Shown here piece by piece: positions 505-45,776 of a DNA stretch of 64,000 bases. Below the pieces are notes generated by a model. That model searched no databases. It was not told the DNA's origin and saw only the letters and a list, made by a program, of their open reading frames with translations. Each line of letters begins with the position of its first letter. Within the stretch, counting starts at the first letter, position 1. Source of the stretch: Maricaulis maris MCS10 (GTDB lineage Bacteria; Pseudomonadota; Alphaproteobacteria; Caulobacterales; Maricaulaceae); assembly GCF_000014745.1 (NCBI RefSeq), contig NC_008347.1, positions 682,001 through 746,000 of the forward strand, given 5' to 3'. Made by a program: the position numbers and the translations under genes.

Positions 505-2286
505 TCAGCCCGCCGCCAGGGCCGCCAGCCGCGCATAGAGGCCGTCATCATTGGCCGCCAGCTCGTCATGCGTGCCCTGCTCGACGATCCGGCCCTGGTT
601 GAAGACCAGGATGCGGTCGGCATTGCGAATGGTCGACAGGCGGTGGGCGATGAGGATGGTCGTGCGTCCGTCCATCACCGCTTCCATCGCCGCCTGCACA
701 TCGCGCTCGGTCTCGTTGTCGAGGCTGGAGGTCGCCTCGTCGAGGATGAGGATGGGGGCATCGGTGAGGATGGCCCGGGCGATGGCGACCCGCTGGCGTT
801 CGCCGCCTGACAGCTTCACTCCGCGCTCGCCGACCAGCGTGTCATAGCCTTTCGGCAGACGCTGGATGAAGGCATCGGCATGGGCCGCCCTTGCCGCCGC
901 GACGATATCGTCGGCAGTGGCTTCGGGGGCGCCATAGGCGATGTTCTCGGCGATGGTACGGTGAAACAGGGCCGGGTCCTGCGGCACCAGCGCTACGTTG
1001 CGGCGCAGGCTGTCCTGCGTCACGCCGCGCACATCCTGGCCGTCGATCCGCACCGCGCCCTCATTCACGTCATAGAGGCGCTGGACCAGCTTGACGAAGG
1101 TCGACTTGCCCGAGCCGGTCGGTCCGACCAGCGCCACCGTCTCACCCGGATCGATCTCCAGCGAGAAATCGGCATAGAGCGGCCGTGTCTGGCCGGCATA
1201 GGTGAAGCCTACCTCGTCGAAATGGATCGCACCGCGGTCACGGCGGAAGTCAGGCGCATCGTCATGATCACCGACATCGCTCTCCTGCAGGTCGAAGATC
1301 GCCAGGTCCTGGATCTCGTCCATGCCGCGCTGGACCTGCTGCACCTGTTCACCGAAGCGCCGCATATAGCCGGACACGATCATGTAGGCGGTCAGCGCTG
1401 CCACCACATCGCCGGCCGAGGCCGCACCGCGCGACCATTGCCAGACCAGCAGGCCGACCAGGGCTGCCTGCATGGTCAGGTCGGTGATGATGTTGACCAG
1501 CCAGGAATTGACGAAGCGCAGCCAGGTCTTCTTGGTCTCGGTGCGCCAGCGCCAGGTGAGCTCATGGAAGCGGGCATCCTCGCGGGCCTCGGCACCGAAG
1601 CTCTTGACGGTCGCGACGCCACCGATCGAATCCGCCAGCGCGCCGCCGATCTCGCTGTCGAGCGCGTTCGAGCGGATATTCTGGGGGCGGATATAGTAGC
1701 GGCTCAGCAGCAGCGAGGAGGTCACGAAGGCAGCCATGACGACAAAGACCACGCCGCCGACCAGCGGCCAGCGCAGCGCCATCATGCCGGCAATGCCCAG
1801 CATCACCCCGACCGAGGGCGCAATGCCCATGAAGATGTTCACCGTGACATTGTCATAGGCCCACATGCCGCGCGTGATCTTGCGCACCACCGAACCGGCA
1901 AAGGTATTGGCGTGCCAGTCCAGCGAGAAGCGTTGCACCCGCGCAAAAGCGTGCGTGGTCAGATCCGCCATGTTGGCCGAGGAAAACGGCACTTCGCAGC
2001 GCGAGGCCGCCTGGCGCAGGGCGTAATAGACCAGCGCCGCTCCCAGATAGGTGGCAAAGGCGGGCCAGGGCGCGCCATTGTCAGGGCCGGCGGCCAGCGC
2101 GTCGATCAGGCGGCCGGCGGCAAGCGGGATCATCAGCTCGGCAATCGTCGCCAGCACCATGAACACGATCATGCCGCTCAGCAGGATCGGCCGACGCCGC
2201 CATTGGCGCGTCAGATAGGCCAGCACTTCCAGATTGGAAAGATCGCGGGCGCGGGGCGTTTCGTCTTGGTTTTGAAAGTCGGACAT
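505..2286 (-). CDS. ABC exporter, fused transmembrane and ATPase domains (MsbA-like half transporter)
   Basis: This 593-residue protein has the classic half-exporter layout. A hydrophobic membrane domain with about six helices spans residues 30-310, followed by a nucleotide-binding domain from about 345. Walker A is GPTGSGKST (about 382-390), the signature is LSGGERQRV, Walker B is ILILDEATSSLD and the switch histidine is in AHRLST, so the ATPase should be active. It would dimerise in the inner membrane and export a lipid, peptide or drug. A second, more MsbA-like exporter lies at 52323-54089 next to lipid A genes, so this copy probably has another substrate. The start at 2286 has only a weak ribosome site. 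Substrate cannot be read from sequence. Confidence 0.9.
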   Translation of the reverse strand: MSDFQNQDETPRARDLSNLEVLAYLTRQWRRRPILLSGMIVFMVLATIAELMIPLAAGRLIDALAAGPDNGAPWPAFATYLGAALVYYALRQAASRCEVPFSSANMADLTTHAFARVQRFSLDWHANTFAGSVVRKITRGMWAYDNVTVNIFMGIAPSVGVMLGIAGMMALRWPLVGGVVFVVMAAFVTSSLLLSRYYIRPQNIRSNALDSEIGGALADSIGGVATVKSFGAEAREDARFHELTWRWRTETKKTWLRFVNSWLVNIITDLTMQAALVGLLVWQWSRGAASAGDVVAALTAYMIVSGYMRRFGEQVQQVQRGMDEIQDLAIFDLQESDVGDHDDAPDFRRDRGAIHFDEVGFTYAGQTRPLYADFSLEIDPGETVALVGPTGSGKSTFVKLVQRLYDVNEGAVRIDGQDVRGVTQDSLRRNVALVPQDPALFHRTIAENIAYGAPEATADDIVAAARAAHADAFIQRLPKGYDTLVGERGVKLSGGERQRVAIARAILTDAPILILDEATSSLDNETERDVQAAMEAVMDGRTTILIAHRLSTIRNADRILVFNQGRIVEQGTHDELAANDDGLYARLAALAAG

Positions 2287-2600
2287 CTCAGCATCGGACC
2301 CGGGGGCAGCGGCGCTGCGGGGTCCGTCCTCATGGTCATCATCATCTGGAAAGTCAGGCAGGTGACGCAGCGGAGTCCCGAAGGCGGCGACCGGGTAGCG
2401 GTCGAGGCTTGTTCAGGGTCAGGACGCGCGCCGGCGACCTGTTTTGCCTAGATGATGGTTCGCATGGATCTGCTCTCTTGTGCCGATTGATCCGGGAGGC
2501 GGTGGGTAGCCCGGCGCGGCGGAGAGGGCAAGGCGGGGGAGGGCGGATTTCGCGTTTGAGGCGAGATGTGTGGCAAGCGGGGCACAGGGGTGCGTTCTTT

Positions 2601-44266: not shown

Positions 44267-45201
44267 TCAGCCTCGCCGTCGCCCTTGCCCTGCAATCCAC
44301 GACGGCCCTGGTCGATGACGCTGCCGATCCGATCGGTGACCTGATCGCCCAAGCCTCGCCTGAGGCGCGGGACGTGGAAATAACCCATGTCGGCCCTTTT
44401 GCAAGTGCTGACAATGTCGGGTGTACCGGGCGCCGCGAAGAAGGCGCATTGTTGGTCTGCTTCTACCCTCCGCGCACGGAACTAAGGCTCGGCGAGGTTT
44501 CTGCGGTGGCAGATCGCGATGGGTTAGCCCTGCTGGGGATACCGCGCAGAGCGCCGGCAAGTTTGACCCTCACTATCGACGTTTCGGCGATCGACCACGA
44601 TAACCTCCTTGGTATCGGGGGCAGCGAAGTCTGGGACATCACCCAGCGCGAATACAATCTCCAGCAGGTCAATGGCGTGCCCCAGGCGACCGTGACACCG
44701 GATGCATCCACGCTGCCGCGGCGCCAGCGCGAATACGCGCAAAAGCAGGCCGCTTTCAACTCGGTCTGGGACGGGCAGGGTTTCCTGGGCGGGTTCATCC
44801 ATCCCGCCGAAGGCATCACGACCGGCGTCTATGGCTCCGCCCGGGTTTACAATAATGGCCATGAAGGCAGCCCGCACTGGGGTCTGGACTGGGCCAATGA
44901 GGTCGGCACGCCGATTTATGCGCCCGCAGGCGGTCTGGTGACGCTGGCCGAGCCGGACATGTATTACGAGGGCGGCCTGATCTTCATCGATCACGGCCAT
45001 GGCCTGGTCTCGGCCTTCCTGCACCTGTCCGGTGTCGAAGTCTCAGAAGGCGATATGGTCGAGCAGGGCCAGCTGATCGGCGCCATGGGTGCGGGCGGCC
45101 GGGCGACCGGCTCGCATCTCGACTGGCGGGTTAAGCTGCGCAACCAGTTCTATGTCGATCCGCAAAGCCTGCTGGATCTGGATCTGAGCGAGTTGCGCTA
45201 G
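44263..45201 (+). CDS. M23-family (LytM) metallopeptidase, secreted
   Basis: A 312-residue protein with a short signal-like N terminus (MISLAVALALQSTTALVDD). After an N-terminal beta-rich domain (about 25-170), residues about 200-300 form the LytM fold: HWGLDWANEVGTPIYAPAGG with the metal histidine and aspartate, DHGHGLVSAFLHLS and the LDWRV end. Zinc peptidases of this type cut peptidoglycan cross-bridges; some are inactive regulators, but all three metal ligands (HxxxD, HxH) appear present. It overlaps DUF2093 by four bases. The strange nested hairpin at 45237 follows its stop by 35 bp. Confidence 0.87.
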   Translation: MISLAVALALQSTTALVDDAADPIGDLIAQASPEARDVEITHVGPFASADNVGCTGRREEGALLVCFYPPRTELRLGEVSAVADRDGLALLGIPRRAPASLTLTIDVSAIDHDNLLGIGGSEVWDITQREYNLQQVNGVPQATVTPDASTLPRRQREYAQKQAAFNSVWDGQGFLGGFIHPAEGITTGVYGSARVYNNGHEGSPHWGLDWANEVGTPIYAPAGGLVTLAEPDMYYEGGLIFIDHGHGLVSAFLHLSGVEVSEGDMVEQGQLIGAMGAGGRATGSHLDWRVKLRNQFYVDPQSLLDLDLSELR

Positions 45202-45236
45202 GCTCTCAGTCGGGGCTTGAAGTGACCTGAGCGCCG

Positions 45237-45403
45237 CGCGCGCAATCAGCCATAAACCGCTTGTCAGCCAGCAGGCCGTATCCGCTTCTTCAGCTCAAGG
45301 GTGAAACCGCGAAGCGGCGGCTGCGCCGCCCTTGACCTGAAGAAGCGGATACGGCGATCTCTCGGCAAGTGGTTTGTGGACGAGTTTGCGCCGATTGCGC
45401 GCG
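45237..45403 (+). ncRNA. Long nested inverted repeat, candidate structured RNA
   Basis: Four nested paired segments: 45237-45247 with 45393-45403 (11 bp, CGCGCGCAATC), 45251-45265 with 45364-45378 (15 bp), 45275-45293 with 45337-45355 (19 bp, GCCGTATCCGCTTCTTCAG), and 45295-45301 with 45329-45335 (7 bp). The loop holds GGCGGC-TGC-GCCGCC. All three imperfect pairs of the second segment are G-U wobbles on plus-strand RNA but A-C mismatches on the minus strand. That favours a plus-strand transcript, possibly the tail of the M23 operon. An extra GTGACC/GGTCAC pair (45222, 45431) may enlarge it. No known RNA family recognised. Confidence 0.5.
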
Positions 45404-45456
45404 GACGTCGAGGAGCAGTGGTGGCGTGTGGGTCACCATCTATTCCGTGTTCCCGT

Positions 45457-45657
45457 TTATTTACGGCCAGATCGGGCAGCCACGACGATCAACTGGTACA
45501 ACACGAGAACAATGAATGCTCCACCGATAACCCAAGGCACAGCGCTGGTTGGGATTCCCAAAAATCGTCTAAGGAAAATGGCGCCCAGCGCGACCGTCAG
45601 GTACAACGCAATAGAAAAGCCGAAGCGGTTCAGGAACCTCGAATAGAAATCTAACAT
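45457..45657 (-). CDS. 66-residue double-span membrane protein, unknown
   Basis: A 66-residue protein starting at 45657 (MLDFYSRFLNRFGF), with GGAAG upstream and two membrane helices (about 14-32 and 38-57: IALYLTVALGAIFL and PWVIGGAFIVLVLYQLIV) and a basic end (ARSGRK). Earlier in-frame starts exist at 45678 and 45717. I recognise no family. It lies between the nested hairpin and the lipid A genes, on the strand opposite to the hairpin's favoured orientation. Confidence 0.55.
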   Translation of the reverse strand: MLDFYSRFLNRFGFSIALYLTVALGAIFLRRFLGIPTSAVPWVIGGAFIVLVLYQLIVVAARSGRK

Positions 45658-45685
45658 AAGCAAACTTCCAATTCTCATTGGATAA

Positions 45686-45707
45686 TTGGGCTCAAGCCCC
45701 TTTTTTT
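45686..45707 (+). terminator. Short hairpin with T7 run, plus strand
   Basis: GGGCTCAAGCCC (about 45688-45699) followed by C and seven T (45701-45707). The stem is only four or five base pairs, so it is a weak candidate. It would end plus-strand transcripts passing the nested hairpin and runs antisense to the 66-residue protein gene. Confidence 0.35.
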
Positions 45708-45776
45708 GACTAGCCAAAGCTGGTCAGCCGTCCGCGGCTATATTGCGACAAGATCCGAAAAGCCTCAGAGCCTCGC

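Follow-up and report, generated by a model that had tools for sequence, protein, structure and literature searches.

What is the long nested inverted repeat that lies between genes in Maricaulis maris MCS10, and is it, as originally predicted, a structured RNA? In the window, the 64,000-nucleotide stretch of DNA analysed from the complete chromosome of 3,368,780 bases, the repeat is flanked by an M23 peptidase gene, whose stop at 45201 was confirmed to lie upstream as first described, and by a small uncharacterised ORF, beyond which a lipid A acyltransferase gene lies on the other strand. The 86-aa ORF at 45457–45717 (minus strand) contains hydrophobic stretches and matched nothing in Pfam. 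Since the DNA around it is also alignable in the orthologue from Maricaulis genome G016, it could be a genuine gene for a small membrane protein.

The nested pairing proposed for 45237–45403 was borne out: the longest exact arm was 19 bp, compared to at most 10 bp across 200 Markov resamplings, and the inner arms (45275–45301 and 45329–45355, 27 nt each) were 96% complementary. The plus-strand RNA fold had an energy of −137.8 kcal/mol (z −7.15), equalled by none of 200 shuffles, and the minus-strand fold was nearly equal (−118.8, z −6.15). As predicted, the three imperfect outer-stem pairs are G.U on the plus strand (T45253.G45376, G45259.T45370, T45264.G45365). The outermost 14-bp segment and its GTGACC/GGTCAC extension, also part of the prediction, were not conserved in four orthologues; across the family described below, the element ends in two separate GCGC mini-hairpins in place of this pairing. 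No known RNA family had been obvious, and indeed no Rfam covariance model scored above its gathering threshold, the sub-threshold matches being mostly to miRNA-hairpin models.

The repeat proved not to be alone: this genome carries at least 41 copies of the same ~170-bp intergenic foldback element, and 37 of these are full length. Presence at 41 places rules out a single-copy RNA gene. All copies lie between called genes, as defined by a simple codon-usage caller, with a few overlapping a predicted gene end by at most ~50 bases. When copies are oriented by their outer arms, a common plan emerges. Each end has a GCGC mini-hairpin. The outer stem, CCATAAATCGCTTGTC / GGCAAGCGGTTTATGG, is 16 bp long and is followed by an internal loop with unpaired AGCCAGCRG opposite CTCYC; then come the 27 pairs of the inner stem, closed by a loop that combines TGAAA with two mini-hairpins. 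In the window copy the parts are as follows.

45231–45400, plus strand: whole element, mini-hairpin to mini-hairpin, bounded by homology among copies and recent paralogues
45231–45243, plus strand: 5′ end mini-hairpin GCGC...GCGC, shared by almost every copy at this end
45250–45265, plus strand: outer stem 5′ arm CCATAAACCGCTTGTC, forming 13 Watson–Crick and 3 G.U pairs with 45364–45379
45266–45274, plus strand: conserved segment AGCCAGCAG, unpaired; identity between paired orthologues 96.8%
45275–45301, plus strand: inner stem 5′ arm, 27 nt, of copy-specific sequence
45302–45328, plus strand: loop of TGAAA, mini-hairpin CCGCGAAGCGG and mini-hairpin CGGCTGCGCCG, found in both orientations among copies
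45329–45355, plus strand: inner stem 3′ arm
45356–45363, plus strand: opposite side of the internal loop (GATCTCTC)
45364–45379, plus strand: outer stem 3′ arm GGCAAGTGGTTTGTGG
45388–45400, plus strand: 3′ end mini-hairpin GCGC-CGATT-GCGC, likewise shared by almost every copy at this end

Two paralogue pairs are near-identical inside and have unrelated flanks, their homology stopping at the end hairpins or no more than about 12 bases away; copies have therefore dispersed. No sequence outside the end hairpins, including any promoter-like flank, is conserved among copies. One locus (L038) carries two copies in opposite orientation less than 500 bp apart, at 1972–2139 (plus) and 2273–2444 (minus). 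A second short repeat, of the GTGTCTGTCCC / ACGTGTCCCCGTTTATT type and resembling REP sequences, often sits just outside the element, as at 45431–45465 of the window and in the right flanks of L031, L037, L044, L045, L038 and L053. No account of these Maricaulis repeats was found in the papers searched, and the family is an undescribed intergenic element of the genus.

The inner stem changes in concert. Among the 37 full-length copies of this genome, 16 of its 27 pairs have changed on both sides (0 of 500 shuffles) with a single one-sided wobble among 999 cells, and the covariation score of both stems together is 0.256 versus 0.086 in shuffles. Across 107 copies, which are not phylogenetically independent, the inner stem comprises 2655 Watson–Crick, 10 GU, 12 AC and 105 other cells, and 82 of these 105 are the family's usual C.C/G.G mismatch, present in the window copy as C45294.C45336. 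Orthologues compared in place gave 18 double changes from one Watson–Crick pair to another, about half of transversion type, and one-sided departures of 10 other mismatches, 5 GU and 4 AC. The test set by the original prediction, conserved pairing with compensatory changes, thus came out positive, with nearly all compensatory changes in the inner stem. In RNA under selection, GU pairs are expected to be favoured, and the absence of wobble bias in the inner stem is the opposite of the plus-strand asymmetry from which an RNA had been argued.

The loop also inverts: 46 copies carry it forward and 50 reversed, and at the window's own site four species have it forward whereas G016 has it reversed. 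Copies with a forward loop usually have C.C at the mismatch position, and those with a reversed loop G.G or a pair. Polymerase template switching between inverted repeats is known to homogenise arms and invert the spacer (PMC8604942), and has been proposed as a keeper of RNA hairpins (PMC8794818). Both marks, homogenised arms and a spacer inverted in place, are present here, and template switching fits the two as one process; it does not explain the retained C.C/G.G mismatch. Because the arms co-change almost without wobble and the loop flips in place, the covariation is better explained by replication slipping across a palindrome than by an RNA gene.

The window copy has same-place orthologues in four other Maricaulis genomes, where the adjoining intergenic DNA is mostly unalignable. 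The identity of element cores was 0.916, 0.880 and 0.921 to DSM 4734 and two MAGs, and that of fourfold sites in neighbouring genes 0.737, 0.639 and 0.735 in the same three comparisons. Since orthologous copies are 88–92% identical and fourfold sites 64–74%, the copies are constrained in place, with some ascertainment bias from the picking of orthologue pairs by similarity. The element's most conserved part is the unpaired AGCCAGC segment (0.968). In G010 the element is missing from about half of the testable sites, at some of which remnants persist; neither a clean empty site nor a target duplication was found at six element-less G010 sites.

An 18-base pattern scan of named genomes found full-length elements only in Maricaulis, one of these being on a contig assigned no further than Alphaproteobacteria, with flanks matching the Maricaulis genome under study; most non-Maricaulis matches were to ~20 bases and were set aside as chance. 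No match pointed to carriage on a plasmid or phage. A looser core pattern, GTCAAGGGN{18,46}CCCTTGA, with the reversed pattern as control, gave 26 forward sites in this genome and 29 in DSM 4734. The other Maricaulis genomes sampled had 0 to 18 each, and many genomes from other families of the order had 1 to 8; the control gave almost none. The exact core site was not found in G004, of the same genus; the element is therefore probably not essential in Maricaulis. Several order-level sites have the same head (e.g., TGAAA then two tandem mini-hairpins) within perfect or near-perfect arms of differing sequence, and in genus g25 an AGCCAGC segment and an end hairpin also flank the stem. Order-level relatives L298–L307 (genus g25) and L315–L317 (genus g22) show copy-specific perfect or near-perfect stems around a TCAAGGG core, and g25 has a separate ATGGCAG/CTGCCAT hairpin beside the stems. 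The common plan, rather than a statistical profile, suggests homology across families.

The reading we favour, and hold to be likely, is that the window feature is a copy of an old, dispersed, intergenic non-coding foldback repeat, MITE- or REP-like and probably recognised in folded form, because there are ~41 copies with unrelated flanks that end at mini-hairpins, the core is order-wide, the arms change in concert, the loop inverts, and conservation exceeds that at fourfold sites. Past spread would have relied on a trans-acting enzyme that recognises the folded form and putatively contacts it at the end mini-hairpins and at the AGCCAGC/CTCYC internal loop. During replication, template switching by the polymerase from one arm to the other would copy mutations between them and flip the loop, and the same switching would maintain the near-perfect inner stem. 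Present copies may be held by selection on the folded element, whether for a host role (an mRNA-end hairpin or a protein-binding site, for example) or for the element's own recognition. Against this account, a search for Y1 transposases yielded no mobilising enzyme in this genome; neither a clean empty site nor a target duplication came to light; a dead selfish repeat would not usually be conserved so strongly in place; and the retained C.C/G.G would need selection if mismatches are freely corrected by template switching. The wobble excess of the outer stem, described below, also counts against it.

A host role at gene ends is the leading functional guess, and a domesticated gene-end hairpin is a tenable, clearly less probable, explanation of the element as a whole. 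The repeat would fold in read-through transcripts from either side and block exonucleases or be cut by RNase III; with both strands in use, GU, which is AC on the other strand, would be selected out. This would account for the strict Watson–Crick pairing and the conservation, and it agrees with the position of every copy between called genes. Facing the copies are 46 gene 3′ ends and 34 5′ ends, but this excess is not significant (p 0.22), and although 11 copies lie in convergent gaps, 5 lie in divergent ones. Loop inversion would still require a process acting on DNA. Copies are sparse near dnaA, 10 of 41 lying within a quarter genome of it (p 0.0015, for a split chosen after seeing the data). 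Most copies (26 of 41) fall at 480000–1440000 of the 3.37-Mb chromosome, on which dnaA is at coordinate 95.

That each copy yields a plus-strand RNA whose fold is selected seems unlikely. The fold energy, the covariation and the conserved unpaired bases speak for such an RNA, as does the outer stem, to which the plus-strand wobble excess is confined: across the 107 non-independent copies it has 175 GU versus 38 AC cells (82 versus 38 with a fixed T.G position excluded), and orthologue pairs show 24 changes between Watson–Crick and GU versus 8 between Watson–Crick and AC, with no double change to another Watson–Crick pair among orthologues in place. This excess fits a single-stranded form (RNA or ssDNA) better than pure double-stranded DNA, and a folded form may act on one strand. 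The wobble asymmetry from which an RNA was first argued is seen in the outer stem and absent from the inner one. An RNA gene is nevertheless not the best reading, because the element is multicopy, its inner stem has no G.U bias, its loop is reverse-complemented in half of the copies, and copies occur on either strand, with no preference relative to genes (21 on the same strand as the upstream gene, 18 on the opposite) or to the replication fork (20 versus 21). Nothing is conserved beyond the end hairpins, and Rfam offered no match. What stands of the RNA prediction is a conserved fold with compensatory changes; what was set against it from the start, a multicopy element of mobile type, is what was found.

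A broader reading unites sequence-free perfect stem, conserved T-shaped head and conserved AGCCAGC bulge in an order-wide element that would be recognised as a folded single strand, be both kept perfect and flipped (flip/flop) by its own cycle of hairpin copying, and be retained by hosts for a common function; we regard it as improbable. Decidedly improbable is a functionless relict MITE whose seeming conservation arose by gene conversion among copies. Dispersal, the range of 0 to 29 forward core sites among Maricaulis species and losses with remnants would suit it, but many copies are closer to their orthologue than to any paralogue (e.g., 5.9% versus 32.5% divergence), only 3 bp separate the invariant internal loop from copy-specific stems, and identity exceeds that at fourfold sites. 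Least probable is an ssDNA element like a viral terminal repeat, in which an HUH-type or other enzyme would nick the folded strand and hairpin-primed copying would equalise the arms and flip the loop (flip/flop): the T-shaped loop of two mini-hairpins in a stem, the about equal orientations, the end hairpins and the one-strand outer-stem G.T favour it, but the HUH search, which covered Y1 only, found none in this genome, and the copies show no fork-direction bias.

The dispersed foldback repeat that we favour shares features with several known systems. The Caulobacter CcrM-associated intergenic repeats (CIR) reportedly have an inverted-repeat organisation. In a review (PMC10969869), these repeats, described by Chen and Shapiro in 2003, are reported as strictly intergenic; the likeness lies in their being intergenic repeats of a Caulobacterales genome. 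The name CIR refers to CcrM (GANTC) sites, whereas the Maricaulis element is depleted in GANTC, with 7 sites in 37 copies versus 25 expected from base composition and only 4 copies carrying one; by its GANTC content the element does not look like a CcrM-type CIR. REP/BIME sequences with their RAYTs are likewise short, dispersed, extragenic palindromes with small hairpins, but the Maricaulis stem is much longer and more perfect, with a T-shaped loop and a conserved internal loop. Its genome has no Y1 transposase gene, on which ground Y1/RAYT mobilisation was rejected here, and relatives' Y1 loci have no element copy within 1.5 kb. Like MITEs and nemis/Correia-type elements, which are non-coding, multicopy inverted repeats of 100–250 bp between genes, the Maricaulis element is multicopy (41 places, all between called genes), non-coding and without its own transposase. 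It differs in having a long inverted repeat, with copy-specific arm sequence, inside end hairpins, and neither a target duplication nor a parent element was found; no transposase-bearing parent was seen in the copy flanks examined, the transposase search of this genome covering the Y1 family. The AAV-type terminal repeat is T-shaped: its stem bears two small arms, and it alternates between two forms that differ in the order of these arms. It serves as a working analogy only: the Maricaulis element has such a stem and two flip forms, but is bacterial, dispersed and without attached replication genes.

Quasipalindromic template-switch sites (PMC8604942, PMC8794818) share with the element arm homogenisation, spacer inversion and double changes including transversions. 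These were described at single sites or in RNA genes, whereas the Maricaulis family offers ~100 natural copies with intense covariation, no wobble bias and loop inversion. RNA structure is customarily proved by base-pair covariation. With its inverting loop and covariation free of wobble bias, the family separates covariation due to template switching from that selected in RNA, a separation visible within one element as inner versus outer stem, and points to an undescribed, conserved intergenic element across a bacterial order, with a putative binding or mobilising factor.
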